Assembly: GCA_022563315.1 (NCBI GenBank)
Contig: JADFNO010000008.1
Location: 1 to 44,532, forward strand
Origin: Planctomycetota bacterium
GTDB lineage: Bacteria > Planctomycetota > Phycisphaerae > Phycisphaerales > SM1A02
Reading direction: 5' to 3'
Length of the DNA stretch: 44,532 bases
Notes under the pieces: model-generated
What the model saw: the letters and a program-made list of their open reading frames with translations, nothing else
What the model was told of the DNA's origin: nothing
The model's database searches: none
Shown: positions 4,374 to 36,701 of the stretch, in pieces
Layout of the letters: each line of letters begins with the position of its first letter
How positions within the stretch are numbered: the first letter of the stretch is position 1
Made by a program: the position numbers and the translations under genes

Positions 4374-4417
4374 TACGAGACTCCGGTTCGGTCAACAGAC
4401 CGGCACTTGCCGGCGGA

Positions 4418-5686: not shown

Positions 5687-5739
5687 GGTCGGGTGATCCT
5701 CAGCCGCCTCGCGCCGGCCAGGGCAGCGCCGCACGCCGG

Positions 5740-6741
5740 CTACGCGCTGCTCGCCGTCGCGCCGTACTTCGCCATGTACTGGTCATGAATCCAGGCGTAC
5801 GTCTTGGCCATCCCGTCACGGAGTCGAATATTCGGCTCCCAATCAAAGTACGCTTTGATCTTCGTGTTGTCGGAATTGCGCCCGTTGACACCCTTGGGCG
5901 CGTCCAGGTTGTAATGACGGTTGAGCTTGATCCCGGCGATCTCTTGAACAATATCGACAAGCTGATCGATCGTCACCAGTTCGTTTGAGCCGATATTCAG
6001 CGGCTCGGTCACGTCGCCGTGCAGCAGCATCTGCGTGCCTTTGAGGCAATCGTCGATATACATGAAGCTACGGGTTTGCTTGCCGTCACCCCAAATCTCC
6101 ATATCGTGATCGCCGGTCGCCTTGGCGTGGATGATCTTTCGGCACAGCGCAGCGGGGGCCTTCTCCCGGCCGCCCTCCCACGACCCGTCCGGGCCGTACA
6201 CATTGTGGTACCGGGCCACGCGCGTCTCAAGCCCGAAGTCCTCGCGGAAATGCCGGCACATCCGCTCCGTGAACAACTTTTCCCAGCCGTAGCCGTCTTC
6301 CGCATCGGCTGGGTAGGCATCCGCCTCTTTCAGCGCCACGATGTCTTCACTGGTCTGCTTGTCCTGAGCGTACACACAGGCGGATGAGGAATAGAAGAAC
6401 CGCTTCACGCCACGGTCCTTGGCGGCCATCAGCATGTGTGTGGTGATGAGCACCGAGAGCATGCACTTGGCCTTGTTGAGCTCGATGAAGCCCATGCCGC
6501 CCATGTCCGCGGCAAGCTGATATATCTCGTCGGCGCCTTCACACGCCTCCTGGCAGTTACCCTTTTCCGAGAGATCAAGTTGGAGGTTCTCGACGCCGTC
6601 GTGGACTTGATGCCACTCGTCCAAAGGCTTGATGTCGATGCAGCGGACGTTGGTGTAGCCTTGGCGAAGCAGGTCGGCTGCTAAATGCCCGCCGATGAAC
6701 CCGCCGCCGCCTCCGATCACGACGTGTTGGTCATTGCTCAT
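5740..6741 (-). CDS. GDP-mannose 3,5-epimerase-like NAD-dependent epimerase
   Basis: 333 residues, an extended short-chain dehydrogenase. The NAD-binding Gly-rich loop is VVIGGGGGFIGGHLA (7-21). The catalytic Tyr-Lys pair is YGWEK (Y151, K155). Two more residues are diagnostic of GDP-mannose 3,5-epimerase of the plant type: the acid/base Cys in SSSACVY (C122) and the Lys in GGREKAPAALCRK (K194). This enzyme converts GDP-mannose to GDP-L-galactose or GDP-L-gulose, so the cluster probably makes an L-hexose-containing polysaccharide. The ATG at 6741 has GGAAGG upstream. It is the first gene of the exopolysaccharide cluster. Most bacterial relatives in EPS loci are annotated only as NAD-dependent epimerase, so the precise product is an inference from the conserved Cys and Lys. 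Confidence 0.87.
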   Translation of the reverse strand: MSNDQHVVIGGGGGFIGGHLAADLLRQGYTNVRCIDIKPLDEWHQVHDGVENLQLDLSEKGNCQEACEGADEIYQLAADMGGMGFIELNKAKCMLSVLITTHMLMAAKDRGVKRFFYSSSACVYAQDKQTSEDIVALKEADAYPADAEDGYGWEKLFTERMCRHFREDFGLETRVARYHNVYGPDGSWEGGREKAPAALCRKIIHAKATGDHDMEIWGDGKQTRSFMYIDDCLKGTQMLLHGDVTEPLNIGSNELVTIDQLVDIVQEIAGIKLNRHYNLDAPKGVNGRNSDNTKIKAYFDWEPNIRLRDGMAKTYAWIHDQYMAKYGATASSA

Positions 6742-10500: not shown

Positions 10501-10910
10501 ACGAAACCCTTTCCAAACTCGAAGCTCAGGGACGTCAAGCTCAAGGGCGTGGTGTTGCGGTCGGCGTACCCCTGGGAGAGCTTCTGGCTCGCCGTCACCA
10601 GTTGCTTGACGATGAAGGTGAACCTCCCCGGCTGAGCGAGCTTCCCGGCGGAAGCGGTGAGTATGTCGTCATTGCTGCTGGACGCCAAGGCCGCTTTGAA
10701 GATCGAGTCGGCCCGAAATGACTTCGACGCGGTCTTTAGACTCAACAGCCGGGTGTTGATATCCATCAGCGCGAACTGCTTCGCCTTGAGAAACGCGATC
10801 TTGGTTTGCAGGGGGATCTTGCCGCGGGCTTCAAGCGCGATGAGCTGACTGATCAGCGATGCGGTGTCGATGCCGCTGATCAGGCCGATGCCGGTGGTGA
10901 TTGTGCCCAT
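7593..10910 (-). CDS. fliD: Flagellar filament cap protein FliD, giant form with flagellin-hook-IN repeats
   Basis: 1105 residues, over twice the usual FliD length of about 450-700. The N-terminus ISGIDTASLISQLIALEARGKIPLQ is the canonical FliD start (xSGLDxxxLVxxLMxxExxP). The C-terminus is a long helix (KVFEDQIELTEKRIERFDER through MERALALLQGQSNALL), as in the FliD D0-D1 region. Between them lie several copies of a flagellin-hook-IN type motif, such as SINEVLDRINNSEDVAVTAS followed by GDGLVITDTSGG, TLFDVIAEINSRGIAVTARI and TLDEIVTKINAANIPVTASV. FliD caps the filament tip and guides flagellin folding. The repeats suggest an enlarged surface-exposed cap. GGAG lies 12 nt before the ATG. It is followed by fliS and preceded 19 bp upstream by a small unknown gene. 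Confidence 0.92.
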   Translation of the reverse strand: MGTITTGIGLISGIDTASLISQLIALEARGKIPLQTKIAFLKAKQFALMDINTRLLSLKTASKSFRADSIFKAALASSSNDDILTASAGKLAQPGRFTFIVKQLVTASQKLSQGYADRNTTPLSLTSLSFEFGKGFVGPDTELADLNGGAGIDRGKIIITDKSGDQGTIDLADVTSINEVLDRINNSEDVAVTASVSGDGLVITDTSGGGGTLSIVSASGDTTAEDLGIDVAAVGGVITGDDIRTLGASTQLRSLNDGNGVIVRNNVADLVITARDGTRFDIDLGRIDKPIDDETELSDLNNGDGITIVNGEPDFQIITTENDIVDIDLGQLLDENDDVTDEAVTTVLELINRVNSQLNAEVATDQVVLSINADGTGFNLTDTLGGSGTLRVIGAGPKGDDTAQDLGILATDGGEGDVDEVEDGIITGAIIPNTVQDPAVVTIQDVIDRIANATEADSTPNDGHIEATLAADGVSLQIDDTVGGGTNLIITGGPGGGPSAAADLGIEADVASNTVDGIRLIAGLNSVLVRNLNGGAGLNGNTAMSIQDSDGNIEAFNFDETGSLSDIIDLINDPTPGGAEVTASLNAKGTGLLITNNATGTMDFIISGVAAAELKITGTVSPGANGDQIVGDNLQVRYVSEAVLLRDMNYGRGVGLGSFRITDGYGNAEDVSVGSDANTLFDVIAEINSRGIAVTARINDNGDGLLIEHDPANASPQQTGEPFVAIKVESLGGSAATDLNILGEADSVGDDMLIDGSYERVVTLETGDTLDEIVTKINAANIPVTASVINTGSGATPFHLTLTSTINGRDGELIIDNAPLTEDLGFTTLTQGQDAKVFFGSTDPADGFLITSDSNTIDDLLQGVTINLVKASDEAVTVTVKRDIETIADAVLNFATTFNDAIGRMNDHDFFNVDTEERGVLLGDNTVSQVRDGLHRLALGKPKGVETQYQFLSQVGLTLGKNGVLDFDRTKFLEAYETDPNAVENLFAAFEATTVTEETIADGVTINPNKQVYTKLGFGELFDQLLERLTNSIDGTVTLADKVFEDQIELTEKRIERFDERLDAKRLRLERQFMAMERALALLQGQSNALLSLNGNLILAQSFGT

Positions 10911-11371: not shown

Positions 11372-12376
11372 CTATTCGCTGACGAACCCGAGTCGTTGCA
11401 TCAAGCCGTCGAATTGGTCGAGGCCATAGAAGTCGATGATGAGTCGGCCTGTTCCCTTCTTCTTGCCCGCCTGGATGGTCACCTTCGTTCCCAGGTGTGC
11501 GCCGAGCTGACGCTGCAAGTCCTGCACATGAGCGTCCATCGCGGCGGGCGGGTCGGCTGGGCCCACCGCTGCTCGATTGGACAACTGGCCGACGCGCCGT
11601 TCCAGCTCCCGCACCGACCACGCCTGGCGGATGGCGGCCTCGGCGAGGCGGCGACGCTGTATGGAGTTAGTGATTGCTAACAATACCTTGGCGTGACCGA
11701 CTGTCAGCCGCTCGTCGCGGACGGCTGCCCTGGTGGCCTCGTCGAGCTCCAGCAGGCGAAGGAAGTTCGTCACGCTCGAGCGGTTCACGCCGACCCGGTC
11801 CGCCAGCTCCTGATGTGTCAGCCCATGCTCGTCGATGAGCTGCCGGAATGCCTCGGCCCGCTCGATCGGGTTGAGATCCTCGCGCTGGACGTTCTCGATC
11901 AGGGCCCAGGTCGTGGCCGTCTGGTCATCGAGCTCCCGAACGATCGCTGGCAGTGGGGAGAACCCGATGAGCTGGGCCGCCCGCCACCGCCGCTCACCCA
12001 CCACGAGTTGGAACCCCCGGGTCCCCCCGGCCCCCCCGGCCAAGCTGGGGCGCACGACGATCGGCTGCATCAACCCTGCACTGCGTATAGAGGCCGCGAG
12101 CGACCGGAGGCCGGCCTCGTCGAAGTGCTTTCGCGGCTGGTTGGGGTTCGGATGGATATCCTCAGTCGGGATCATCCGAATCCCGCCGGGGTCTTGGGAG
12201 GGCGGATCAACCGGCTGGGCCTGGCCGGTCCTCATGACCGCGTCAGCTGTGGCCGGCGAACTTCGTTGATCGGAGGCTGGTTGAGGCTTGGTCTCGATCT
12301 GGACGGGCGTGGACATGAGACTGTCCAGGCCGCGCCCGAGGCGGCGACGCGATCGATCGGTTCGGCGTAAGGCCAT
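11372..12376 (-). CDS. parB: Chromosome partitioning protein ParB
   Basis: 334 residues. The N-terminal LGRGLDSLM is the ParA-contacting segment. IHPNPNQPRKHFDEAGLRSL and GERRWRAAQ (127-133) are the CTP-binding ParB/Srx core, ENVQREDLNPIERAEAF (161-177) is box II, and LTHQELADRVGVNRSSVTNF (187-206) is the helix-turn-helix that reads parS. The C-terminal FYGLDQFDGLMQRLGF is the dimerisation part. ParB loads at parS, spreads as a clamp and works with ParA in segregation. The ATG at 12376 has GGGAG 8 nt upstream. A longer frame starting MFHVEQ at 12439 is only translation of the parS palindrome. ParA is encoded 12 kb away on the other strand, so there is no parAB operon here. Confidence 0.95.
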   Translation of the reverse strand: MALRRTDRSRRRLGRGLDSLMSTPVQIETKPQPASDQRSSPATADAVMRTGQAQPVDPPSQDPGGIRMIPTEDIHPNPNQPRKHFDEAGLRSLAASIRSAGLMQPIVVRPSLAGGAGGTRGFQLVVGERRWRAAQLIGFSPLPAIVRELDDQTATTWALIENVQREDLNPIERAEAFRQLIDEHGLTHQELADRVGVNRSSVTNFLRLLELDEATRAAVRDERLTVGHAKVLLAITNSIQRRRLAEAAIRQAWSVRELERRVGQLSNRAAVGPADPPAAMDAHVQDLQRQLGAHLGTKVTIQAGKKKGTGRLIIDFYGLDQFDGLMQRLGFVSE

Positions 12377-12422
12377 GGGTCGTGCTCCCGAGTAGGGGTT
12401 GGTCACCCCGCTTGTACACGGT

Positions 12423-12438
12423 TGTTCCACGTGGAACA
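12423..12438. promoter_or_regulatory. parS: parS centromere site
   Basis: TGTTCCACGTGGAACA is a perfect 16-bp palindrome matching the bacterial parS consensus (TGTTNCACGTGNAACA). It lies 46 bp upstream of the parB start. A loose promoter (TTGTTC, 17 nt, TACAAG on the minus strand) would overlap it, which would let ParB bound at parS repress its own gene. The site is seen directly; autoregulation is inferred. Confidence 0.95.
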
Positions 12439-12439
12439 A

Positions 12440-23602: not shown

Positions 23603-24343
23603 CTACGGTCCGGGGTCGGGGAAGGCCCAGGTCATTGCCTTCGGTTCGGCGCCCAACATTTCCCGAATGTACGCCCCGAGCAGCCGGTTAGCGCGATCAA
23701 CGGCTGAAGCATCCGCCGTATCGACTGACTCGCCGCCGGCCACCGCCCGAAGCAGCGCGATCGTTTCCAAGCGAACGCGCCAGCGATCACCCGCGCCGGT
23801 GTCAGCAACCACGCCGCCTGCGGCCGCCGAGAACGCCAACGTCGAAGACTCAGCGTCCAACGGACGACCCGTCTGGGCGTCGTGATCCAATTGCGGCCGG
23901 TATCCCGTCTCGCACAGAATCGACCACTGGAACCGTAGAAGTGTCAGGGCGACCTGATCCGTGTCGTCAAGCGCGGCCAACGATCGCCTGAACTCGTCGA
24001 AAAGTTGGGGGTGTGGGTCATGCTCACTGAGCATGTGATGAATGAGGTCAGCCATATACAGACCCGCGCGATTCGCCGCCAAACGCTGCCGCAGCGCCCG
24101 GTAGAGTTCCTCAAGGTGCCACTCGGTGATCGTGGCCAGGTCCTGATTCGGTTTGACGATAGCGACGACTTGTCCGCACGTGAGCAGATCAATCCCGCCG
24201 GAGAACTTGCCTTTGGCGCGCTTGGACCCCTTGGCGATGCCCCGCAGCACGCCGTGCGCTCGCGCAAACAGGCTCACCGTCTGAGACGTTTCCGAGTAAT
24301 CCCAGCGGCGGATGCAGATGGCGCTATCGGTGATGGTCGGCAT
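23603..24343 (-). CDS. recO: DNA repair protein RecO
   Basis: 246 residues. The OB-fold N-terminus is seen in DSAICIRRWDYSETSQTVSL, FARAHGVLRGIAKGSKRAKG and IDLLTCGQVVAIVK, and the helical part in LYRALRQRLAANRAGLYMAD. RecO helps RecR load RecA at gaps and anneals strands. The zinc-binding Cys cluster of many RecO proteins is missing: the region reads GYRPQLDHDAQTGRPLD where CxxC is common. The ATG at 24343 starts the family match; a frame from 24499 would extend 52 residues backward across the parA start and is rejected. It diverges from parA across 79 bp. No clear Shine-Dalgarno is seen. Confidence 0.9.
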   Translation of the reverse strand: MPTITDSAICIRRWDYSETSQTVSLFARAHGVLRGIAKGSKRAKGKFSGGIDLLTCGQVVAIVKPNQDLATITEWHLEELYRALRQRLAANRAGLYMADLIHHMLSEHDPHPQLFDEFRRSLAALDDTDQVALTLLRFQWSILCETGYRPQLDHDAQTGRPLDAESSTLAFSAAAGGVVADTGAGDRWRVRLETIALLRAVAGGESVDTADASAVDRANRLLGAYIREMLGAEPKAMTWAFPDPGP

Positions 24344-24386
24344 TGGGAAGGGCCGGAGATCGGAGGCTTTGGGCACGGCGTTATGG

Positions 24387-24415
24387 TTGGGAACGGATTC
24401 TTCGGTCGATATACT
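24387..24415 (+). promoter_or_regulatory. parA promoter, probably giving a leaderless transcript
   Basis: TTGGGA (24387-24392), 17 nt, TATACT (24410-24415) make a good sigma-70 promoter. The parA ATG is at 24423, just 7 nt beyond the -10 box, so the first base of the RNA would be at or one base before the start codon. No Shine-Dalgarno could fit. The boxes are seen; leaderless translation is inferred. Confidence 0.55.
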
Positions 24416-24422
24416 GATCACT

Positions 24423-25406
24423 ATGGCCGACACCGCAAGCGCCGCCAAACATCGTCCTCGCGCCGTCGCGCTGATGAACCAAAAGGGAGGCGTGGGCAAG
24501 ACGACGACGGCCGTGAATCTCGGCGCGGCGATCGCCGAGGCCGGGCGCCGCGTCTGCCTGATTGATCTTGATCCGCAGGCTCATTTGACGTTGCACTTGG
24601 GTATCGATCATGAGCAGATCAAGCATACGACGTACGATCTGCTCGTCGATCCTGACTGTCCAGCGGCGAACTGTCTGGTCACCGCTGCCCCGAACCTGGA
24701 CGTGATTCCCTCGGAGGTCGATCTGGCCGCCGCTGAGATTGAGTTGGCCGGTCGGCCGGACCGTCAGCAGATCCTGTCGATGAAGTTCGCCGCGCTTGAA
24801 GACCGCTACGACGTCGTGCTGATCGACTGCCCGCCGAGTCTTGGGCTGCTCACGCTCAACGCCCTGGCGCTGGCCGGGGAAGTGCTCGTGCCGTTGCAGG
24901 CGCATTTCCTGGCCTTGCAAGGGCTGGGGAAACTGCTTGAGACGGTCGGTCTTATTCGTCAATCCGTGAACCGGGATTTGCGCGTCGCGGGCATTATCCT
25001 TTGTATGCACGAGAAACAGACATCGCTGGCGAAGGAAGTCGTCGCCGACCTGGAGTCGTTCTTCCAAGCGGCGCGCAGCCAAGACGTTCCCTGGCGGGAC
25101 TGCCAGGTGCTTCGACCGGTGGTTCGGCGCAATATCAAGCTTGCCGAAGCGCCCAGCTTTGGTCAAACGATCTTCGATTACGCGCCGTGGTGCGCCGGCG
25201 CGAACGACTATCGCATCCTGGCTCAGCGGCTCATCGAGGCGTGGGACGTCCAGACCGAATCCGCCTGTGACAAGGCGCAGGCGTCGACCACGATCGAAGT
25301 CACGTCCCAACTCGTGTCGAGGCCGCGAAAAGTACCGACGCCACAGACCGCGTCATCCGCCGGGGCCCAAAGGCCGCGCGGTATGACCGAGCAACGTGAC
25401 TTCTAA
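24423..25406 (+). CDS. parA: Chromosome partitioning ATPase ParA
   Basis: 327 residues, somewhat longer than Soj (about 255). The deviant Walker A is ALMNQKGGVGKTTTAVNLGA, Walker A' is RVCLIDLDPQAHLTLHLG, and Walker B is VVLIDCPPSLGLLTLNAL. The C-terminal region has APSFGQTIFDYAP. ParA binds DNA as an ATP dimer and drives ParB-parS segregation. A polar tail of about 60 residues (from IEAWDVQTESACDKAQ to the end) extends past the core and is low in family character. The ATG at 24423 is chosen from the family match and the promoter. It overlaps the next gene by 11 bp. The cognate parB and parS lie 12 kb away in reverse orientation. Confidence 0.93.
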   Translation: MADTASAAKHRPRAVALMNQKGGVGKTTTAVNLGAAIAEAGRRVCLIDLDPQAHLTLHLGIDHEQIKHTTYDLLVDPDCPAANCLVTAAPNLDVIPSEVDLAAAEIELAGRPDRQQILSMKFAALEDRYDVVLIDCPPSLGLLTLNALALAGEVLVPLQAHFLALQGLGKLLETVGLIRQSVNRDLRVAGIILCMHEKQTSLAKEVVADLESFFQAARSQDVPWRDCQVLRPVVRRNIKLAEAPSFGQTIFDYAPWCAGANDYRILAQRLIEAWDVQTESACDKAQASTTIEVTSQLVSRPRKVPTPQTASSAGAQRPRGMTEQRDF

Positions 25407-26529
25407 CGCAACCAAGTACCTGCGACGTCTGACGAAACCTTGGCGCGTGGTCTTTGTCTTGTATGCGTGCGCGCTGACTGTCGCCACCCACTGGCCCCAA
25501 CTCGATATCGGCACCGAAACCCAACCGGCCCCGGACAAACTGCTTCACCTATTCGCCTTCGGCGGTCTGGCGTTCTTGCTCATCCAAACACGTTGGCTGC
25601 GAAGAATCTGGATGGCGGGAATCCTCGCCGTCATGTGGACGCTGCTCGATGAGATCACGCAAGCGCTGCCTGTGCTCGGGCGACAATCCTCGGTCACGGA
25701 CATCCTGGCGGGGGAACTCGGCGTCGCCCTCATCGTCACGTGGGCGTGGGCGCTGGGTTCGATCGGCGGGGTTGCCAATCGCACTCGACTGGCGCAACAA
25801 CATTTCCTGCTGGCCGAGCTGTTTCGTCAGCCCCGAACGTGGATTATCGTGGCATCGGCAGCGCTGCTCGGCGCGCTGGTCACGGGCGGATCGATCGCAT
25901 TGGCGATGAAGTTCGTTTTTACGCGCTACGGTGGTGAGCAACTGACCAAAGTACTGGTGGCCGCGATCGTCGGTGCGCTCGCAGGCACGCAGGTGTCGCT
26001 GGCCGGACTTCTGAGTCGGGTCGCCGCTGGGCGCGTAAAGCAGCGCCCTTGCTTTGGGTGCGGTTCATCATGCATTGCAGTTCAGTTCGACAGCGCGGGC
26101 CGAGGCCGTTGCCCACAGTGCGATGTGTCGCTGCAGCTTGGGCAGTGGGCCGAACCAATGCAGTTGCCGCTATCAGCCGCCGCGCGAGGCGTTGTACCCG
26201 CCGTCGCCTTCGCCGGCGGAATGTTGATCGCCGGCGCGGTCACGTTGCTCGTCCTACTGCGCCTGGCGAGGCAGTTTGCCTGGGCCAACGATCTCATTCG
26301 AATCTGGCACGACTTCCCGCCCGACATGCAGACCGCGGTCGACCTTACCGCCATCGCGCTGATCGCCGCTTTGGCCGTTCGGATCTACCGTCGGCGTCAA
26401 GCGCGACTCCATGATCGCCAGCATCTGAACTGCCGCGCTTGTGAACACGATCTGCGAGGCACGCCGATCACGCAGGGCGTCGGCGTATGCCCCGAATGCG
26501 GCGCACCGTTCGTTCGCTTCGCGAAGTAG
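25396..26529 (+). CDS. VanZ-like membrane protein with two zinc ribbons (paralogue 1)
   Basis: 377 residues. The N-terminal third is VanZ-like: DKLLHLFAFGGLAFLL followed by helices and DEITQALPVLGRQSSVTDIL (compare DExxQxFxxGRxxxxxDxxxN). Further membrane helices follow (about 150-210 and 275-300). A first zinc ribbon is CFGCGSSC (from C219) with CPQC (from C239), and a second at the C-terminus is CRACEHDL (from C346) with CPECGAPF. The second ribbon (CRxCxYDLRG...CPECG) is common at the ends of planctomycete membrane proteins. Function unknown; VanZ-like domains are linked to cell-wall-active drug tolerance. The start is a GTG inside the 3' end of parA, 11 bp overlap, so translation is probably coupled to ParA. 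Confidence 0.8.
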   Translation: MTSNATKYLRRLTKPWRVVFVLYACALTVATHWPQLDIGTETQPAPDKLLHLFAFGGLAFLLIQTRWLRRIWMAGILAVMWTLLDEITQALPVLGRQSSVTDILAGELGVALIVTWAWALGSIGGVANRTRLAQQHFLLAELFRQPRTWIIVASAALLGALVTGGSIALAMKFVFTRYGGEQLTKVLVAAIVGALAGTQVSLAGLLSRVAAGRVKQRPCFGCGSSCIAVQFDSAGRGRCPQCDVSLQLGQWAEPMQLPLSAAARGVVPAVAFAGGMLIAGAVTLLVLLRLARQFAWANDLIRIWHDFPPDMQTAVDLTAIALIAALAVRIYRRRQARLHDRQHLNCRACEHDLRGTPITQGVGVCPECGAPFVRFAK

Positions 26530-26533
26530 TTAG

Positions 26534-26561
26534 TTGTTAGTGATTGGTTGTTGGTGATTGG
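26534..26561 (+). repeat. Tandem 14-bp repeat after a stop codon
   Basis: TTGTTAGTGATTGG and TTGTTGGTGATTGG stand in tandem (13 of 14 identical), five bases past the stop of the upstream gene. It belongs with the other low-complexity intergenic strings of this window. Confidence 0.5.
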
Positions 26562-26600
26562 TTTAGCGGGCGACGCGCAGCGTCCCTTCTTCACAGGATT

Positions 26601-26625
26601 GAAACACGGAGGGCCACGGAGCCGA
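26601..26625 (+). repeat. ACACGGAGG-type intergenic repeat
   Basis: GAAACACGGAGGGCCACGGA then GCCGA contains two near-copies of (A)CACGGAG. This string type recurs in intergenic DNA of many bacteria. It may overlap the promoter region of the next gene. Confidence 0.45.
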
Positions 26626-26672
26626 AGGGAGAGTTGGGATAAGATCATGATGCGGGTGGAAAGGAGTTGTCC

Positions 26673-27851
26673 GTGGCAGCGAAACATACCGCCATCGAAC
26701 GGGATCGCCGAAGACTCACGTGGCTTGTTGTAGCTAGCGCGTTGATTACTACTTCGGTGGTCCTGCGCTGGCCAGCGTTTTCCGTCGCGATCTTTGAACC
26801 AGATTCATCGGCGGCTCTGCTGGTTCTCTCGCTGGTTTCTGCGGCTGCGAGTTTTCTTTGGTTTCGACAAAGGCCGTTCAAGTCAAAGATACTGATGTTC
26901 GTTCTGCCGGCGCTTTGGCCCATTGCTGATGAAGCCGTCGCGATCCTGATTCGCTTCGTACAAGCCCAGGAGCGAGTCGAATTGCTCGATATGGCGGCTA
27001 CAACTTTCGGGGTCTGTCTCGGCTGGTATTTGTGTTGGTCCCTGCGGCCGTACGAAGGATTAGCTGACTCCATAGCCCGTCGCCATTGGAAATATGTCAG
27101 ACAACGAGCTCTGCGCGACCGGGAATTCCGTCGCCGGTATATTCGCCGAGCAAAGCGGCAAGCGCTGATTCTCCTTCCAGTTGCCGCCGCACAGGCATTG
27201 ATCGTTCTTTGGATTCTTTGGTATTCGGCCGAGGGTCAAATCACCTTGCAGCCCTTTCATGTCGCCGCATATGTCTGGCTAATACTCGCCATGTTTCTGA
27301 TCGTAGTAGTGGTCCTGCCATTTTGGATTGGTCGGGTTTGGCTTGTTTACGAAGCGTCGCCGCACTACTCCGAGCAAATGCCCTGCTTCAGCTGTGACAC
27401 GAGCTGCTCTGGTATCGAGTTCGATGAGAATGGCTGGGGATGCTGCTCGCAATGCCAAGCGATCGTACATCGCGGTCAGTGGATCCCACCCAGCAAAGAG
27501 CGAAAAGGTGGCAGGCAAGCACCGATCAAGCTGCGCACTCAGTTGCTGCATTTGATGCCCGCAATACTGCTCACCTCCGCAGCGATGTTTCTGGTTGTGG
27601 CGGCTGGTCTCGTGAACTCTAACGCCGCGACGTACGGCGTGATGGCCACACTAATGGTTGTATTGATGCACGGAGGTATTCGATCCGGGTGGATCGAGTT
27701 CGCGAGAATCTGTGCACGCCAGCACATTGAATGTCGAGAGTGTGCCTACGACCTAAAAGGGGCTTCAATCGAACAAGGCGTCGGCGTCTGTCCGGAGTGT
27801 GGCACACGGTTCGCGCGCATGGTCGAAGAAGAACGCCCCAAGGCCCAATAG
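26673..27851 (+). CDS. Membrane protein with two zinc ribbons (paralogue 2 of the VanZ-like pair)
   Basis: 392 residues, clearly a tandem paralogue of the preceding gene. The first ribbon CFSCDTSC ... CSQCQAIVHRGQW matches CFGCGSSC ... CPQCDVSLQLGQW, and the last ribbon CRECAYDLKGASIEQGVGVC, then PECG, matches CRACEHDLRGTPITQGVGVC, then PECG. The N-terminal third has membrane helices and retains ADEAVAI where the partner has DEITQAL, but the VanZ signature (DKLLH) is gone. A strongly basic stretch (RRYIRRAKRQ) precedes another helix pair. AAGGAG lies 6 nt before the GTG at 26673, an ideal spacing; a TTG at 26667 touches the AAGGAG and is unlikely. Codon use looks less GC-rich than in its partner. 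Function unknown. Confidence 0.8.
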   Translation: MAAKHTAIERDRRRLTWLVVASALITTSVVLRWPAFSVAIFEPDSSAALLVLSLVSAAASFLWFRQRPFKSKILMFVLPALWPIADEAVAILIRFVQAQERVELLDMAATTFGVCLGWYLCWSLRPYEGLADSIARRHWKYVRQRALRDREFRRRYIRRAKRQALILLPVAAAQALIVLWILWYSAEGQITLQPFHVAAYVWLILAMFLIVVVVLPFWIGRVWLVYEASPHYSEQMPCFSCDTSCSGIEFDENGWGCCSQCQAIVHRGQWIPPSKERKGGRQAPIKLRTQLLHLMPAILLTSAAMFLVVAAGLVNSNAATYGVMATLMVVLMHGGIRSGWIEFARICARQHIECRECAYDLKGASIEQGVGVCPECGTRFARMVEEERPKAQ

Positions 27852-27870
27852 AACAATTCTTTTTCTACCC

Positions 27871-27912
27871 CTTCTCTTTCCTCTCTGTGCTCTCGGTGCC
27901 TCTGTGTTGAGT
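27871..27912 (+). repeat. CTCTGTGCTCTCGGTGCCTC-type intergenic repeat
   Basis: The stretch CCTCTCTGTGCTCTCGGTGC then CTCTGTGTTGAG is a pyrimidine-biased string whose relatives are scattered through intergenic DNA of many bacterial phyla. It lies between the stop of the zinc-ribbon gene and murJ. Function unknown. Confidence 0.55.
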
Positions 27913-27931
27913 CCTTCCCCACGTGGTCGAT

Positions 27932-29506
27932 ATGAATCAGCGTATGGCCGAGCAGTTCGAACGTCATTCGCGCACGTTCTCGTTGCTGACGTTCGTCAGT
28001 CGTCTCACCGGGCTTGCGCGCGATGCGACGCTGGCCCGCGTCTTCGGCGCCGCCGGCGTGATGGACGCGTTCTTTTTCGCCTTCATCATTCCCAATCTCT
28101 TTCGGCGACTGTTCGGCGAAGGCGCACTGACCGCGGCGTTCATCCCAAGCTACGCCCAGCTTGACAAGTCCGATCCACAAACGGCCAAACGCTTGGCGTC
28201 ATTGATCATCGCCGTGCTCGTGGTCGCGCTCAGCGCCGTGACGCTGCTCAGCGAGGTCGTGCTCTACCTCATATCGCGCCAGGCGGATCACGATCACCTG
28301 GCCGTCCGATTGATGATGATCATGCTGCCGTACATGCCGTTGGTGTGCGTGGTGGCGATCCTCGGCGCGATGTTGCAGGTGCACGGGCGCTTCGGTCCCA
28401 CGGCCGCCGCTCCGATCGTGTTGAACATTTGCCTGATCGGCGCTGCCGCCGGGGTCGTGCCGGTCTTTGGTGATCTCAGTGAAGCACGGCACATCAGCGC
28501 CGTGGCGATCGCGGTCGTTGTTGCTGGACTCCTTCAAATCGGTTGGATGCTTGGGGCGCTGCGCGGCCGGGGATGGTGGGCGCGCGATTTCAAGGCGGCT
28601 CGAGCGCCGGCTCGGGAAGTATTGCGCCGAGCGGGACCGATGATCCTCGGCCTCGGCGTGCTGCAAGTCAATACGTTCTTTGACGGTCTGATCGCCAGCT
28701 ACCCCACGATCGTTGGATCGACGATCTTTGGAGTTGAATACCCACTCAAAGAAGGCGCGCTGGCGGCGGTGAGTTACGCCCAGCGCCTTTATCAATTCCC
28801 GCTTGGCGTATTTGGAATTGCGGTAGCGACGGCGATATTCCCCATGTTAGCTCGACAGGCGGCCGACCCCGTGGCGTTTACCGACACGCTGCGGCGCGGA
28901 CTTCGATTGGTTGTCTTTATAGGCTTGCCCGCCAGTGCAGGCTTGATGCTCGTTGGTCAGCCGTTGGCGACGGTGATCCTCCAAGGCGGCGACTTTACTG
29001 CGGATGATTCAGCCCGCGTGGCGTTTGTGCTCATGGGATATGCGACTGCGGTGTGGGCGTACTCGATGATTCATGTTCTGACGCGCGCGTTTTATGCGGT
29101 GGGCAACGCCAAAACGCCGGTGAAGATTGCCGTGTCGATGGTGGGGTTGAATCTGATATTGAATTGCACGTTGATCTGGACGCCGCTGCGCGAGGCTGGG
29201 TTGGCGTGGTCGACGGCAATCTGCGCCACGCTTCAGGCAGCCATTTTGCTGTGGTGTATACAGCGCAAAACACCGCACACCGTCAACACCGAAGTGATTT
29301 TCAGTTGGACGAAGTCGATCATCGTGACGTCATTGATGTTCGTGATCGCATGGATCGTGCTGGCAAACCTGCCGGCCGTGACAACGTGGGGTGCATCGTT
29401 CGCGCAGCTCCTCATCGTCGTGCTTGTCGGCATGCTCGTCGTGTGTTCCGCCGCCGGCGCGTTCCGTATGCCCGAACTGTGGTGGGCGCTGGGCAAGCGG
29501 GGCTGA
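27932..29506 (+). CDS. murJ: Lipid II flippase MurJ
   Basis: 524 residues, a member of the MOP flippase superfamily with about 14 membrane helices. The opening LLTFVSRLTGLARDATLARV, FGAAGVMDAFFFAFIIPNLF and RRLFGEGALTAAFIPSY is the MurJ/MviN signature, including the Arg residues needed for flipping. Later KEGALAAVSYAQRLYQFPLG, FGIAVATAIFPMLARQAAD and LTRAFYAVGNAKTPVKIAV are also typical. MurJ moves lipid-linked peptidoglycan precursor, and in related members exopolysaccharide units, across the inner membrane. The ATG at 27932 is used; a GTG three codons earlier is possible. No Shine-Dalgarno is visible. It converges with the ATPase gene, 28 bp apart. Confidence 0.95.
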   Translation: MNQRMAEQFERHSRTFSLLTFVSRLTGLARDATLARVFGAAGVMDAFFFAFIIPNLFRRLFGEGALTAAFIPSYAQLDKSDPQTAKRLASLIIAVLVVALSAVTLLSEVVLYLISRQADHDHLAVRLMMIMLPYMPLVCVVAILGAMLQVHGRFGPTAAAPIVLNICLIGAAAGVVPVFGDLSEARHISAVAIAVVVAGLLQIGWMLGALRGRGWWARDFKAARAPAREVLRRAGPMILGLGVLQVNTFFDGLIASYPTIVGSTIFGVEYPLKEGALAAVSYAQRLYQFPLGVFGIAVATAIFPMLARQAADPVAFTDTLRRGLRLVVFIGLPASAGLMLVGQPLATVILQGGDFTADDSARVAFVLMGYATAVWAYSMIHVLTRAFYAVGNAKTPVKIAVSMVGLNLILNCTLIWTPLREAGLAWSTAICATLQAAILLWCIQRKTPHTVNTEVIFSWTKSIIVTSLMFVIAWIVLANLPAVTTWGASFAQLLIVVLVGMLVVCSAAGAFRMPELWWALGKRG

Positions 29507-29534: not shown

Positions 29535-31022
29535 TTATACGCCAAGCCGGGCACTCATCGCGTTATGCGCTTGTTGGCTTACGGCCAAAAGGAACAGGTC
29601 AAGAGGAAGGGAGCCGATCCCGTCCCGACTGTCCAACGACCGCATGCTCGTGGCGTTGGGGGCGACAAGATAACATTTCCCTGCGAAGCGCGGAAATCTT
29701 CGGGTGAACTCAAGGAGGCCGGCCTGAGAGTGTGTTGTTGACGCCGCGATTTCAAACGCCAACGGTTCAGTTGGATGGTCGAACACCAGGTCAACTTCGT
29801 GCTGACCGTCACGCCAATAGTACAGACGAACCTGTGCGTGTTGCGCCAAGACATGCAGGTGCGATGCTGCAAGATTCTCATAGAGTTGGCCCATCTCCAC
29901 TGGATCGGAAAGAGGCGCGACACCGCGCTGGAGAGCGGCGTTCCGTACAGCCGCGTCCACAAAATAAAGCTTCCTTCCACGTTTTTGCCGGGCCGCCTCA
30001 GTCCCCGAATAGTTCTGGAGCCTGAAGATAAGGAACGCTCGTTCGAGGTACGCAACGTATCGATCGAACGTCGGGAGGGAGAGTCCATCGAGCGTGCGAC
30101 ATAGCGACGTGGGCGACAGAATACCAGTGATCTGACCAGCAAGTGTGTACAGCAATCGCTCCAGAAGCATAGGATTGTCAATACTGAACGCCTGCGGGAT
30201 GTCTTTGTAGACAGCCCGTTCGATCGCGTCATTCTTGAGCGTTCGCTGCGACTCAAGAAGAAGAGATGCTTCGTCCATATCCGCTTGGCTTGTCTCAATG
30301 AGTAGCTCAGGAAAGCCGCCCGTAAACAGAAAGCGGCGCCGGGCATTCTCAAGAGACCCGATGTCGATATCCGCGTCTATGCATCGATCAATGCATGAAG
30401 CCAGTGTCTCGGCTTCAGGAACTGCGATCGGCTGATCGATAAGATCGAGGAATTCGAGGAAGAGGTATGGCGCCATGAACTGCTCTTCCCATCGACCGAC
30501 GCCGCTTTCCATCCGACGATCACGCAAGACCGCCGTGGAACTTGATGAGCCTACTATTCGCACCGGCCACTGTTCGTCGTAGAATGTCTTGAGCCAGAGA
30601 TCCCATTCGCTTGCGTAGGCCAGTTCGTCAAGGAACAAGTAAAGAGGCGCCTCATTCGTGGCGTTTGTTCCCTTGAGTAGGTCTCGCACCCATTCACCGA
30701 GCGGGATGGACAGGAGCAGGGGATGATCAAGCCGTAGCCACCATACTCGGCGGCGGGGTATGCCTTCGTGAAGCAGGTGCCGAACTGTTTGGTAAAGGCA
30801 CGTCGTCTTCCCAACCCGCCTCGGGCCGAGGATGAGCTGATAGCGCCGAGGCGCGTCTTCTAGTACGCGCTTCCAGAGCTCCATCGCCAACGGGCGTTCG
30901 ACCTTCCTCGCCAACGTGTCGGGAACTGATCCGTCAGCGAGCCAAGGGTTCTGCTCGCCAAGAATCCGCTGAAAGTCCGCCGCACTTGGCTTCCATAGGG
31001 GTCTCTTCCGCGTGTCAGCCAT
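29535..31022 (-). CDS. AAA family ATPase with DUF4143-type C-terminus
   Basis: 495 residues. The P-loop is LILGPRRVGKTTCLYQTVRH (GPRRVGKTT at 66-74), Walker B is PLYLFLDELAYASEW, and sensor-type SSSSTAVLRDR follows, as in AAA_14. The C-terminal part fits DUF4143: VYKDIPQAF, YVAYLERAFLIFRL, KLYFVDAAVRNAAL and YENLAASHLHVL. The nuclease-like end reads YYWRDGQHEVDLVF ... LAFEIAAS, so the usual E-x-K is E-I-A and the catalytic Lys is missing. The family is widespread, often horizontally acquired, with unproven roles in toxin, DNA or stress functions. Its neighbours murJ and mqnE give no clue. The ATG at 31022 lies 6 nt from a -10 box (see promoter entry); an ATG at 31028 is the alternative. Confidence 0.88.
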   Translation of the reverse strand: MADTRKRPLWKPSAADFQRILGEQNPWLADGSVPDTLARKVERPLAMELWKRVLEDAPRRYQLILGPRRVGKTTCLYQTVRHLLHEGIPRRRVWWLRLDHPLLLSIPLGEWVRDLLKGTNATNEAPLYLFLDELAYASEWDLWLKTFYDEQWPVRIVGSSSSTAVLRDRRMESGVGRWEEQFMAPYLFLEFLDLIDQPIAVPEAETLASCIDRCIDADIDIGSLENARRRFLFTGGFPELLIETSQADMDEASLLLESQRTLKNDAIERAVYKDIPQAFSIDNPMLLERLLYTLAGQITGILSPTSLCRTLDGLSLPTFDRYVAYLERAFLIFRLQNYSGTEAARQKRGRKLYFVDAAVRNAALQRGVAPLSDPVEMGQLYENLAASHLHVLAQHAQVRLYYWRDGQHEVDLVFDHPTEPLAFEIAASTTHSQAGLLEFTRRFPRFAGKCYLVAPNATSMRSLDSRDGIGSLPLDLFLLAVSQQAHNAMSARLGV

Positions 31023-31028
31023 CACCAT

Positions 31029-31163: not shown

Positions 31164-32486
31164 CTATTGAGCAACGCGCCAGGCATCGCCGTCACGCTCG
31201 ATCGAGCGATACAGCGTGTCGCGCTCGACGGGGCGGAAGCCTGCTTCGCGGATGGCTCGCTGGAGGTCCCAGACGGTGGCTTCTTGATGGGTTGATGGGC
31301 CACCGACCTTGGTGATGTCGTACCACACGACGGTGCCATCGATGTCATCAGCGCCGTTTTGTAGCATGAATTGCGCCATCTCAAGCGTGTGCATGATCCA
31401 AAACGCTTTGCAGTGTGGCAGGTTATCCAACATCAAACGGGCGATGGCGAGGGTGCGAAGATTCTCTAGTCCGGTCGGTCCGGGCAAGTGCTGCAACGCG
31501 CTGTCGTCTGGAATGAACGGCAGCGGAATGATCGTCTGAAAGTAGCCGGACTCACACGAATCCGGATCGGGCAGGCGCTGGCGGGGGTACATCTCATCCG
31601 GGCCGGTCAAGACGACCGCATCGTCCTCCTGCAACGCGATACCTTGTGACTGAGCCCATGAGCGCAGCGTGCGGTCCTGTTCACAGCGGAGAATCTCCAT
31701 GTGCTTGATGCGATCGGCGCGCTCTTCAATATGCCCGTAGAGGATCGTCGCATTTGTATTCAAGCCGAGTTCATGCGCTGCGCGGTGAACATCAAGCCAA
31801 GTCCCAGCGCGGATTTTCCCCTTGAACGCTTCATCGTGAACACGATCGTCAAAGACTTCGGCTCCCCCACCGGGAAGCGACCCCAGCCCCGCTTCCTTCA
31901 AGTCCCGAAGCACCGATTTGATGCCTTCGTATTTCAACGAACCGCGCTTGGAGATGCGCGCCAGGTGCACGATTTCCACCGCCGTGAACGCTTTGATATG
32001 CAGCTTCGGCGCGGCCTCGCGAATCGCGCGCATCATCTCGGTGTAATACTCGAACTCCAGCCAAGGGTGCAGCCCGCCAACGATGTGGATTTCGGTCGCG
32101 CCGATCTTGGCCGCCTTGATCGCTTCAGCGCGAATCCGGTCGATCGAGAACTCATACGCGCCCGGCTGATCCTTCTTGCGGTAGAAGCTGCAAAAGGTGC
32201 AACTGAGCGCGCAAACGTTGGAGTAGTTGAGGTGGCGGTTGATGTTGTAGTAGGCCGCATCGCCGTGCATTCGTCGGCGTACGAAGTGGGCCAGGGAGCC
32301 GACCGACCAGATATCCGGCGTCTCATACAGGAGCAGGCCGTCGTCCACCGAGAGGCGCTGTCCGGCGTGGACCTTCTGGACGATCGGGTCGAGGCGGGAG
32401 TCGCGGCCGGGGCGGACGGCGGATCGGGCGGGGGCAGGGCTCTGGATTGCCAGGGTGGTGGCGGACATGGGCAGTAGGATGAGCAT
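31164..32486 (-). CDS. mqnE: Aminofutalosine synthase (radical SAM)
   Basis: 440 residues. The radical-SAM cluster motif CxxxCxxC is NVCALSCTFCSFYRK (C92, C96, C99). IVGGLHPWLEFEYYTEMMRA, AFTAVEIVHLA and LPGGGAEVFDDRVH are characteristic of MqnE, as is NATILYGHIEERADRIKHM. MqnE joins SAM to 3-[(1-carboxyvinyl)oxy]benzoate, giving aminofutalosine, in the futalosine route to menaquinone. The remaining pathway genes are not in the window. The ATG at 32486 has AGGGG 6 nt upstream; a shorter start at 32468 is possible. It diverges from the coiled-coil protein gene. CofH/MqnC are related families, but the GGLHP and PGGGAEVF motifs favour MqnE. Confidence 0.92.
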   Translation of the reverse strand: MLILLPMSATTLAIQSPAPARSAVRPGRDSRLDPIVQKVHAGQRLSVDDGLLLYETPDIWSVGSLAHFVRRRMHGDAAYYNINRHLNYSNVCALSCTFCSFYRKKDQPGAYEFSIDRIRAEAIKAAKIGATEIHIVGGLHPWLEFEYYTEMMRAIREAAPKLHIKAFTAVEIVHLARISKRGSLKYEGIKSVLRDLKEAGLGSLPGGGAEVFDDRVHDEAFKGKIRAGTWLDVHRAAHELGLNTNATILYGHIEERADRIKHMEILRCEQDRTLRSWAQSQGIALQEDDAVVLTGPDEMYPRQRLPDPDSCESGYFQTIIPLPFIPDDSALQHLPGPTGLENLRTLAIARLMLDNLPHCKAFWIMHTLEMAQFMLQNGADDIDGTVVWYDITKVGGPSTHQEATVWDLQRAIREAGFRPVERDTLYRSIERDGDAWRVAQ

Positions 32487-32496
32487 CGTAGCCCCT

Positions 32497-32520
32497 GGAG
32501 GCCGATCCGGAGGCCGATCC
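32497..32520 (+). repeat. Tandem 12-bp repeat upstream of mqnE
   Basis: GGAGGCCGATCC occurs twice without interruption, 10 bp upstream of the mqnE start, in the divergent promoter region. It may be an operator or a slippage product. Confidence 0.45.
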
Positions 32521-32707
32521 GGCACAAAACGAGCCCGGCAGTCACTTGAGTCAGATGAGAGAGACTGCCGAATCCGATCCTTTAGGCCGGAACTTATGGA
32601 TCATCAAGGATATTCGGACTACGCGCTGGAGCGAATCCGTTGCGTTGACGATATCGACGTTGTCTCTCGAGGCGCTGGGGGGCGGTCACGAGCGCGAGTG
32701 CCCTGTA

Positions 32708-35350
32708 ATGCAGCAACACAACCACCACGATCAGGCCGCGGGTCGGGACCCGGACCCCGCCGAGCCAGGCATTGGGCCGTCGGGGCTATTGTCTGGGGCG
32801 AATGGACAGCCGCTCGACGAGCTCTCTCGGGCCGCGGGCGACGAGGTGTTCGACATCCTCTCGGGCGTTCAGCTGCAGATCGAACGGCTCCGCGGCCTGC
32901 ACCGTGGTCATGACGAGAAGCTCGCGGCTCTGACCGCGCGTTCCCGGGAGATCGAGACGGCCGGTCAGGAGGCCGCCCAGCAGCGCGCTGCCGTGCAGCA
33001 ACAGCAGGAGGCGCTGGCCGAGCGTGAACATGAGCTCGCGACGGCCCGCCGGCAGCATGCGGCAACTGAGGCTGAGTTGGACCGCCAGCAAGCGCAGTTC
33101 GTTGAGCAACAGGCCAGAGGCGAGACCGATCGCGCGGAGCCGGAACGCCGGACGCGGGACCTGGAGCAACGAGAGGCCGCGCTGAGCCAACAGCAAGCTG
33201 AACTCTCCCCGGAACGTCTTGACGAGCTTTTGGATCGTTGCCAGTCACTACAAGATCAGCTCAGTGCTGGCGAGTCCCAAATCACCGAGCTCGGCCTGGA
33301 ACTCGATCGCCGCGCTCAGCAGATCGATGCCACGGACCAGCAGTGCCGTGAGGCCGAGGAGCAGAGCCAAGCACTTCAGCAGCAAGTGGCTGAGCTTCAA
33401 AGCACTGGTGCGGAAACGAACGAGCGTACTGAGAACCTGAATCGGGAGGCGGAGTCGAAGCTTACAGCACTTACCGATCAGGTGCGCGAGCTGGAGGCGA
33501 CACGAGAAGAGCAAAGCGCTTCCCTGGAGGAGTTCCGCCAAAAGAACCAGGCGGCTGAGCAAGAGAACCGCAAGGTCTCTGAAACTCTTCACGAACAAGA
33601 GGCGCAACTTGAAGAAGGGACCAAGGCCAAGGCGACTGTGCAGGATCAGCTCGGGGCCGCTGAGAATCAGATCATTGACCTGAAGGAGGAGCTGGATCGT
33701 CGTGCGCAGCAGGTCAATGCCAAGGACCAGCAGTGCCGTGAGGCTGAGGAGCAGAGCCAATCACTTCAGCAGCAAGTGGCTGAGCTTCAGAGCACGGTTG
33801 CGGAAACAAACGAGCGGGCTGGAAGCCTGAATCGGGAGGCGGAGTCGAAGGTTGCAGCACTTACCGAGCAGTTGGAGGAGCTGGAGGCGACGGTGCAAGA
33901 GCGAAGCGCATCGTTAGACGAGTACCGCGACAAGTTCCAGACCGCCCAGGAGCGGATCGGTGACCTTGCCGGCACGATCGAGGAACAGCAACCCCGACTC
34001 GAGGAGGGCGCCGAGGCCATTGCGACGGTGCAGCAGCAGCGGCAGCAAATCGGGGAATTGACCAACCAACTGGCCCAGTACAAAGTCGCCAGCGACCCCG
34101 ACCAGTCACGGCAGAAGGACGAGCGAATTGAAGAGCTCGTCGAAGCGCTTCGCCAGGCCCGAGGTCAAAGCCCCGGCGAACAATCACACGCAGAAGCCGA
34201 AGCGCGGATCCACGAGCTGACGACCGAGAATGATCAGCTCAGGATCGAAGCTGAGCGTGCGGCTATCGAAACGCAGGAGGCGTTACGCCAATTGGAGCAG
34301 CACGATCACGCGGGGTCGGTCGACGACGGTGAAGATATCGTCGCGCTGCATCAACAACTCGAACAAGTCGAGCGGAAGCTCGCCGAAGCGCGTGCCGTCG
34401 ACCTGCATCCGTCCCGAGGCGGGTTCGATCATCCAGCGGACGGTGCTGGGAACGAAGCGCAGCGTCTTCGGGTCGAGACTCAGCACCTTCAGCGACGCCG
34501 GGGCAGGCTGGCGCGACTCCGCCGTGCCCTGCGGGCTCGGACGCGACCGGATCCTCTCACCGGGCCGGAGACAGAGGTTGATTCCTACGACCTGCAGGAC
34601 CAAGAGCGTCAAACTCAGCAGCTTACGGAACTGCGCGAAATGTTGGCGGCGTCCGAACGGGAGATGATTCGCAGGTGGGCTCGGCCATGGGCGGTGGTGA
34701 CGCTCGGCTGGGTTGCGGTATTGGCGGTCGTCGTCGCCGGGGCGAGCTGGTTCTTCGCCGATCATTTCGCTCCGGCCACGGTGTCATCGTCGGTCACCTT
34801 CGAAGCGAGGAATCGATCGGGCGCGCCACTGTCGATCGAGGAAGCGGAATCGTGGCGCAGCTGGCACACCGACCTGCTCGTGGACACCGGGTTTACAAAC
34901 ACGTTAGCCAAGCGGCTCGCTGATCGTCGACTCGATCGCTACGGCGACCCCAACGCTCTTCGCCAACGGTTCATGGTCGATCTGACGATCGACGCCGTGC
35001 CCGAAGGGATCATGACGGTTTCGTTGGCGGGCACGGATCCGCAAGAGATCACGGCGTTGCTCGATGCCCTTGCCACGACATTCGTCACGGAATCGTCGCG
35101 CCGTATGAGCAAACGAGGTGACGGCCCGCACGCGGTCGTCAAGGGCGGAACCAAGGAAGGTGACCGCCTGCGATACGCCACGCTCAATCCGATCCCCATC
35201 CACGACGAGCGGCTGCAATACGCCGGCTTCGCCTTCGGCGCTGCGTTCCCAGCCTGCCTGTTGCTGATCTGGGTGATCTACCGTCGCCTCGCTCTGGCCA
35301 AGAGCGTCTTCGACGATCCGGACGCGATGTTCATCGTTCCTGCCGTCTAG
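32708..35350 (+). CDS. Large coiled-coil protein with a Wzz-like two-helix membrane module
   Basis: 880 residues. Residues from about 50 to 600 are a long Gln/Glu/Arg/Ala-rich coiled coil containing a 130-residue tandem duplication. A basic segment (LQRRRGRLARLRRALRARTR) leads to membrane helix 1 (WAVVTLGWVAVLAVVVAGAS, about 660-683), a periplasmic domain of about 150 residues (FTNTLAKRLADRRLDRY, then MTVSLAGTDPQEITALLDAL), and helix 2 (FAFGAAFPACLLLIWVIYRR, about 840-860). The two helices with DPQEITALLDALATTFV resemble Wzz/GumC polysaccharide co-polymerases, which set chain length. The huge cytoplasmic coiled coil is unusual. A role in surface-polysaccharide export is likely but unproven. 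The start is unsure: no Shine-Dalgarno at 32708, and starts at 32546 or 32555 would add about 50 residues. Confidence 0.75.
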   Translation: MQQHNHHDQAAGRDPDPAEPGIGPSGLLSGANGQPLDELSRAAGDEVFDILSGVQLQIERLRGLHRGHDEKLAALTARSREIETAGQEAAQQRAAVQQQQEALAEREHELATARRQHAATEAELDRQQAQFVEQQARGETDRAEPERRTRDLEQREAALSQQQAELSPERLDELLDRCQSLQDQLSAGESQITELGLELDRRAQQIDATDQQCREAEEQSQALQQQVAELQSTGAETNERTENLNREAESKLTALTDQVRELEATREEQSASLEEFRQKNQAAEQENRKVSETLHEQEAQLEEGTKAKATVQDQLGAAENQIIDLKEELDRRAQQVNAKDQQCREAEEQSQSLQQQVAELQSTVAETNERAGSLNREAESKVAALTEQLEELEATVQERSASLDEYRDKFQTAQERIGDLAGTIEEQQPRLEEGAEAIATVQQQRQQIGELTNQLAQYKVASDPDQSRQKDERIEELVEALRQARGQSPGEQSHAEAEARIHELTTENDQLRIEAERAAIETQEALRQLEQHDHAGSVDDGEDIVALHQQLEQVERKLAEARAVDLHPSRGGFDHPADGAGNEAQRLRVETQHLQRRRGRLARLRRALRARTRPDPLTGPETEVDSYDLQDQERQTQQLTELREMLAASEREMIRRWARPWAVVTLGWVAVLAVVVAGASWFFADHFAPATVSSSVTFEARNRSGAPLSIEEAESWRSWHTDLLVDTGFTNTLAKRLADRRLDRYGDPNALRQRFMVDLTIDAVPEGIMTVSLAGTDPQEITALLDALATTFVTESSRRMSKRGDGPHAVVKGGTKEGDRLRYATLNPIPIHDERLQYAGFAFGAAFPACLLLIWVIYRRLALAKSVFDDPDAMFIVPAV
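33251..34030 (+). repeat. 390-bp tandem duplication inside the coiled-coil gene
   Basis: 33251-33640 and 33641-34030 align without gaps at an offset of exactly 390 bp (130 codons). The core, for example 33340-33400 against 33730-33790 (DQQCREAEEQSQ then LQQQVAELQST), is nearly identical in DNA, and similarity fades toward the 3' ends. This is a fairly recent in-frame duplication. Confidence 0.85.
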
Positions 35351-35826: not shown

Positions 35827-36060
35827 ATGCCAATGCTTCAACTGACCAGCGCGATGCCCGAAATGATGCCGTCTCCGTCGGGGCCGTCCTCCCGAATCTG
35901 GAGTGGTTCTGACGTACCACTCGGTACGCCCGAGCCGGACCCCTTTCCCGGGCGCGTCTTCACCGCTGCCGACACGTTGAGCCGGCGGATGAAGGATCTC
36001 GCCCGCGAGTTTGATTGTCTGGGCTATTTCGACGACGACGACAGCCCCCGCGCCGCCTAG
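35827..36060 (+). CDS. Small hypothetical protein
   Basis: 77 residues from the ATG at 35827, not recognised. The first half is Ser/Pro/Met-rich (MPEMMPSPSGPSSRIWSGSD), the second half more protein-like (FPGRVFTAADTLSRRMKDLA, then REFDCLGYFDDDDSPRAA) with an acidic end. GGAGG lies 16 nt upstream, too far to be decisive. The stop overlaps by 4 bp the stop of the convergent secreted-protein gene. It could be a real small gene or a shadow frame. Confidence 0.35.
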   Translation: MPMLQLTSAMPEMMPSPSGPSSRIWSGSDVPLGTPEPDPFPGRVFTAADTLSRRMKDLAREFDCLGYFDDDDSPRAA

Positions 36061-36701
36061 CTCGGGCTCGAATTCACCCTTGAAGTCGCCGCCGCCTTCG
36101 CCGCAGACTGCATCAAGTCCCGGACTCGGTCCGCACGGTAATCCGCATCTGTCACGATCGTTGGCGCGACCGACCGACGAGCAGTCTCGGGAACGCGCTC
36201 CGGCCGCTGTCTACCTAGGCCCGGGAACGGAATAGTTGACGTACCGAGCTTTATCCGTCGCACCCCGGTTTGCCTGGCCCGTCGCGGATCCATTCTCAAG
36301 TTGAGCCTGTCCTCATAAGGATCATCGCCGACGCCATCCTCGCCTTGCCGGGTTGACGCATCGACCTGGCCCAAGCGCTCCAGGTCGGGATAGCCGATGT
36401 AGAAAACGGTCCCGGCGGGGATAAGCGGCACGGTTCCGTTCTTGCCGCGCGTATACACCGACTGAGGAAAGATCGCGTATATCCCGCCCTCGATCCGCAT
36501 GAGCAGATCGTCTCGATTGGGAACGCGATACACCTGGTCAAACGCGGACGGCTCACGAAGTCCCCGCTCAATCTGCCGCAGACTTATGGACAGCGGCGAC
36601 GTGTCCTCCACCGTCTGGTCGAGCGGCTTGAGATCACCGGTCTGGCCCAGGACGGGCGTCGACAGGCAAAGGACGAGAGTGGCGATTCCAAGGCGGGTCA
36701 T
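36057..36701 (-). CDS. Secreted protein of unknown function
   Basis: 214 residues with a signal peptide (TRLGIATLVLCLSTPVLGQ, cleavage likely after VLG or GQT). The middle has VYRVPNRDDLLMRIEGGIYA and FPQSVYTRGKNGTVPLIPAG, then TVFYIGYPDLE, an all-beta-looking segment. The C-terminal third is Arg-rich and probably disordered. No family is recognised. GAGGA lies 6 nt before the ATG, a good ribosome binding site. It stands between a convergent small hypothetical and birA, and is read in the same direction as nadC-birA, 79 bp after birA. Periplasmic or outer-surface location is inferred from the signal peptide. Confidence 0.8.
   Translation of the reverse strand: MTRLGIATLVLCLSTPVLGQTGDLKPLDQTVEDTSPLSISLRQIERGLREPSAFDQVYRVPNRDDLLMRIEGGIYAIFPQSVYTRGKNGTVPLIPAGTVFYIGYPDLERLGQVDASTRQGEDGVGDDPYEDRLNLRMDPRRARQTGVRRIKLGTSTIPFPGLGRQRPERVPETARRSVAPTIVTDADYRADRVRDLMQSAAKAAATSRVNSSPS

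Follow-up and report, generated by a model that had tools for sequence, protein, structure and literature searches.

A long coiled-coil protein of the Phycisphaerales joined to a crownless membrane module of the polysaccharide co-polymerase type

The focal gene and its neighbourhood

The window, which is the whole 44,532-nucleotide stretch of Planctomycetota DNA analysed here, carries on its forward strand the open reading frame 32708-35350, referred to below as the focal gene; its relatives constitute the focal family. The encoded protein is composed, in this order, of an N-terminal tail, a helix motif, a coiled coil, a basic juxtamembrane motif, a first transmembrane helix (TM1), a periplasmic domain, a second transmembrane helix (TM2) and a short tail. 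The features of the locus are as follows:

31164..32525, reverse strand: aminofutalosine synthase MqnE (menaquinone), divergent neighbour and the most frequent neighbour of the focal family
32708..35350, forward strand: whole focal gene, 880 codons plus stop, ATG start
32837..32950, forward strand: conserved N-terminal helix motif (GDEVFDILSGVQLQIERLRGLHRGHDEKLAALTARSRE), A4 profile E 1.8e-14
32951..34582, forward strand: long coiled coil of approximately 540 residues with heptad periodicity, predicted to be cytoplasmic
33251..33550, forward strand: first copy of a direct repeat in the coil (300 nt; spacing 390 nt, or 130 codons)
33641..33940, forward strand: second copy of the repeat, 80% identical to the first
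34652..34684, forward strand: positively charged juxtamembrane motif SEREMIRRWAR, near-invariant columns in the A1 and A2 alignments
34691..34747, forward strand: TM1, hydropathy peak at residues 662-680, helix in the model
34760..35212, forward strand: periplasmic dome domain of the PCP/Wzz type, lacking the helical crown (profiles and model)
35186..35212, forward strand: Pro-containing, PCP-like segment before TM2, NPIPIHDER
35213..35269, forward strand: TM2 with conserved Gly residues (consensus YAGxIFGG), hydropathy peak at residues 836-854

The ATG at 32708 is preferred as the start of the focal gene, because it leaves a divergent intergenic gap of 182 bp and because most relatives start there, but it is not proven; an alternative in-frame TTG at 32546 would give a protein of 934 amino acids. 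Comparison with the copy from the same genus (L102) gave a pN/pS of 0.29 over the ATG open reading frame (750 codons, with 58 synonymous versus 52 nonsynonymous differences), which identifies the focal gene as protein-coding and under purifying selection.

The focal gene usually adjoins housekeeping genes. The gene order in the taxonomic family of the window is ParA, VanZ-like, MurJ, the divergent mqnE, and the focal gene, and in other families mqnE is often retained, or an ECF sigma factor with its anti-sigma factor, or an ABC ATPase, adjoins. The ParA - VanZ-like - MurJ string (24312-29506, forward strand) is itself conserved in the window's family, with one or two copies of the VanZ-like gene, one of which shows a weak zinc-ribbon match; ParB is encoded 12 kb away, at 11372-12439. 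Between murJ and mqnE lies an AAA/DUF4143 ATPase (29535-31028, reverse strand; PADLOC PDC-S01 match), for which no relative was found in the compared neighbourhoods. Several genomes of the window's family encode, just downstream of the focal gene and convergent to it, an exported-looking protein having no Pfam or NCBIfam match (36057-36701 in the window, reverse strand; cluster 11). Elsewhere in the window, a FliD-like flagellar cap protein (7593-10910, reverse strand) is unusually long with its 1105 residues, and its FliD match falls mostly in the C-terminal third.

A membrane module homologous to polysaccharide co-polymerases

The initial annotation had described two helices enclosing a periplasmic domain of about 150 residues that resembles the polysaccharide co-polymerases (PCP) of the Wzz type, and both parts of this description hold. 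Hydropathy gives TM1 and TM2 with 155 residues between them, and two such peaks were found in nearly all full-length members of the focal family. As to the resemblance, sequence profiles, predicted structure and sequence motifs agree, and the outcome that the initial annotation had named as refuting, a predicted fold unrelated to Wzz, did not occur.

An alignment of the membrane module from 24 focal-family relatives (A1) was compared with PDB profiles, where only Wzc matched below E = 1, with a best E-value of 0.042 that is weak on its own. An hhalign comparison of A1 with 25 canonical Wzc-type proteins from Phycisphaerales gave P 1.7e-9 in local alignment and P 5.8e-10 with the tool's own alignment, with TM1 and the base domain both in register, and P 7e-8 was obtained even when the comparison was limited to the periplasmic part. 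As controls, A1 in reverse, five shuffles of its columns and the alignments of 17 unrelated families each scored below 2% probability. A canonical-Wzc HMM run on 40 neighbourhoods matched 14 focal-family members and no other gene. The AlphaFold model of the module (mean pLDDT 88) retrieved KpsE first from the PDB with Foldseek (E 2.6e-6), followed by Wzc, and each of the 50 matches listed was KpsE or Wzc. VIA-align ranked Wzc highest (Z 12.8), followed by KpsE (11.3), WzzE (8.4), FepE (8.3) and WzzB (7.2), with the KpsE and Wzc rows spanning both transmembrane helices. HMG-CoA reductase and eIF2 alpha, which share a common alpha/beta sandwich and whose Z-scores (6.5-8.8) are level with the Wzz rows, were rejected as relatives because they cover the dome core only, while the KpsE and Wzc rows score higher and span both helices. 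The membrane module of the focal protein is thus of the PCP fold and homologous to polysaccharide co-polymerases. Single-sequence searches listed no PF02706 (Wzz) match, either for the full focal protein or within the families displayed for the 24 focal-family members.

Members of the PCP family are characterized by a Pro-rich segment beside TM2, a Gly-rich TM2 and an elongated periplasmic alpha-helical domain (PMC7809406), the last of which forms in KpsE an elongated helical 'crown' (PMC11041684). At the level of sequence, the first two of these features are present in the focal family in a degenerate form: 83% of the members have a Pro residue no more than 12 residues from TM2, and the G..G spacing in TM2 likewise occurs in 83%. 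The crown is missing, as the model has no periplasmic helix longer than 26 residues and the 155 residues between the two helices compare with 377 in one of the same genome's own Wzc proteins.

The predicted topology has both termini on the inner side of the membrane, which would place the coil in the cytoplasm. Basic residues flank the module on both sides, in the juxtamembrane motif before TM1 (on average 4.25 K+R versus 0.25 D+E) and after TM2, as the positive-inside rule would have it for this topology, and PCP proteins are likewise N-in/C-in.

Coiled coil, N-terminal motif and distribution

Some 600 residues of coiled coil had been proposed before the membrane module; the coil itself is confirmed by its periodicity, but its length is nearer to 540 residues. 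The 3.5-residue heptad periodicity of core hydrophobic residues lies 12 standard deviations over shuffles (z = 12) in the focal protein and 3 to 18 in 16 of its relatives, and the junction of a long coil with the membrane module is constant across the focal family. The length of the coil is not constant: in 29 members, between 300 and 797 residues separate the N-terminal motif from TM1. L102 lacks a block of 130 residues at the position of the direct repeat, a gap which fits one repeat unit, so that coil length shifts here by a whole unit. In single-sequence Pfam and NCBIfam searches, matches of the coil to SMC, HOOK and tropomyosin were rejected as chance coiled-coil matches below the curated cut-offs, and PADLOC matches to JetC and LmuB were rejected as being likewise below theirs.

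The N-terminal motif comprises the 38 residues 44-81 of the focal protein. A profile seeded from ten focal-family members matched 30 of 40 focal-family proteins, close to the N-terminus after allowing for over-long ORF starts, and the sole other neighbourhood gene that it matched was an ORF resembling the split-off front of a family gene (L151). Searched across 41 whole genomes, the motif had no match at E < 1e-4 outside focal-family genes; two divergent members (L036 and L037) carry no recognisable copy. Among close relatives, the N-terminal tail and motif together showed 11 synonymous versus 1 nonsynonymous difference, compared to 36 versus 39 in the coil. The advantage of the motif in raw identity is modest (0.346 in fixed register versus 0.308 for the coil at the best of 140 offsets). 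The focal family is therefore conserved at its ends and variable in length in its middle.

Members of the focal family were found in 192 of 269 Phycisphaerales genomes (108 of 132 genera), mostly as a single copy, the losses being concentrated in members of the window's own family with small genomes (approximately 1.8-2.9 Mb); relatives of the focal gene were found in 43 of 61 genomes. A phylum-wide sample of 391 genomes gave 37 matches, 34 of them in Phycisphaerales. The remaining three matches have weak scores and extend over just 80-96 of the 268 positions of the profile, which is what an ordinary Wzc would give, and the focal family was not recognisable in the approximately 340 sampled Planctomycetota genomes outside this order. 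A DNA-pattern scan, which reaches close relatives only and was run with a narrower set of sequences than A1, returned ten named loci, all from Planctomycetota or from Phycisphaerales/Phycisphaerae MAGs. One genome of family f5 carries two focal-family members in tandem beside mqnE (L037, 9198-13775, reverse strand).

Possible roles and relation to known systems

As the initial annotation had stated, an exopolysaccharide (EPS) cluster is present in the window (722-6741, reverse strand), where an XrtA/PEP-CTERM-type polysaccharide deacetylase is encoded together with glycosyltransferases, but it lies 26 kb from the focal gene. The gene at 722-2230 fuses a family 2 glycosyltransferase and a WcaF-like acetyltransferase in one protein. 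An exosortase-type cluster of Phycisphaerales was observed at L154 (685-11301, reverse strand) and also at L155 and L156; its products are a Wza-like protein, a Wzc tyrosine kinase, a TPR protein of very large size and, as two separate proteins, an exosortase and an exosortase-related one.

The focal protein could be a PCP that controls EPS chain length or export, in which the coil would take the place of the tyrosine kinase of class 2 PCP proteins as the regulatory part in the cytoplasm. The PCP dome and the TM2 motifs speak for such a role, as does the linkage observed in family f2, where five genomes from different genera carry a Wza-like gene within the same 20-kb stretch as the focal gene; in four of these five, Wzc lies 13-17 kb from the focal gene, and the two are arranged divergently in the same way. 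By a rough estimate this loose linkage to the exosortase/EPS cluster is above chance; we treat it as a lead only, because the f2 genomes are related. Against this role, in approximately 40 neighbourhoods that were read the focal gene was never located inside an EPS operon, the crown helices are missing, and canonical full-length Wzc-type proteins are almost universal in the order, being found in 77 of 77 sampled genomes with the focal protein and in 75 of 77 without it; the window's own genome has four canonical Wzc matches. Wza-type export genes are kept in 72 of the 77 genomes without the focal protein, so that their co-occurrence is not discriminating. The focal protein thus neither substitutes for the canonical co-polymerase, an option which we reject, nor is indispensable in genomes with that system, which it could nevertheless modulate. 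The proposal in the initial annotation that the protein regulates chain length or export for the EPS cluster is not upheld, given its position outside EPS operons, the missing crown and the presence of Wzc regardless, and we consider an EPS-controlling PCP in general unlikely. Were it true, a dome separated from its crown would make it possible to test which part sets chain length.

The reading that we favour, tentatively, is that of a membrane-anchored scaffold or tether in which the PCP dome is reused as an anchor; a scaffold component had also been raised in the initial annotation. The crownless dome between its two transmembrane helices would serve as membrane base, and the example of KpsE, Wzc and Wzz makes it probable that it forms an inner-membrane ring, perhaps octameric. 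Such a ring would bundle several long coiled coils into a cytoplasmic stalk with a reach of up to approximately 80 nm, if the 540-residue coil is fully helical, and the stalk would end in the conserved N-terminal helix, to which a partner in the cytoplasm would dock. A long coiled coil whose ends are conserved is insufficient alone as a sign of a scaffold role. A wider proposal, which we hold loosely as a possibility, is that the focal family represents a new class of the PCP fold, in which the crownless dome is the ring base for a coil tether with a docking tip, and which would act inside Phycisphaerales cells as an organiser or cytoskeleton-like element specific to this order.

Two other anchoring roles deserve mention. 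KpsE, the closest fold, belongs to the class 3 PCP proteins and encloses an ABC transporter (PMC11041684), and in family f6 the next gene is often a divergently transcribed ABC ATPase; in parallel with the octameric KpsE ring around KpsMT, the focal protein might accordingly anchor a transporter of the envelope, of the ABC type or another, and have no polysaccharide role. However, the f6 ATPase is nearest to metal, heme and vitamin import ATPases, with scores under the cut-offs curated for these, and it is not the adjacent gene in the other families, which makes this role improbable. Even more improbable is a tether of the nucleoid or of a chromosome partition factor to the membrane, since the SMC-type HMM matches of the coil and the ParA gene in the conserved f1 neighbourhood, which might suggest it, are offset by SMC and MukB-type matches that are marginal or far below the curated cut-offs, as expected of any coiled coil, by the fact that ParA is not a neighbour in other families, and by the failure to find a DNA-binding domain in Pfam or NCBIfam searches.

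If the scaffold reading is true, an order with poorly known cell organisation has converted a fold of polysaccharide export into an intracellular anchor, and the N-terminal motif offers a direct handle for finding the partner.

Among known systems, SMC/MukB-type chromosome proteins were rejected as counterparts, their matches being coil to coil only and far below the curated cut-offs, with no ATPase head reported. A crownless PCP-fold protein with a cytoplasmic coiled coil of several hundred residues was not found described in the open-access literature, Pfam or NCBIfam. The class 1 PCP proteins WzzB, WzzE and FepE (PF02706) share with the focal protein the dome fold, the Pro segment before TM2 and the Gly residues in TM2; unlike them, the focal protein is below Pfam detection, has no long periplasmic helices and possesses a large cytoplasmic N-terminus. 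KpsE (class 3 PCP, ABC-dependent capsule export; 8tsw), the best Foldseek match of the module (E 2.6e-6; VIA-align Z 11.3), likewise has two transmembrane helices flanking a beta-alpha dome, but it carries a crown helical hairpin that the focal protein lacks, its cytoplasmic N-terminus is short where the focal protein has several hundred coiled-coil residues before TM1, and, in contrast to KpsE, no KpsMT-type operon adjoins the focal gene. In the class 2 PCP proteins with tyrosine kinase, of the Wzc/GumC type, the dome is homologous in register to the focal dome, with approximately 377 residues between the transmembrane helices as opposed to 155; the cytoplasmic mass is a kinase located after TM2 in Wzc, whereas in the focal protein it is a coiled coil located before TM1.
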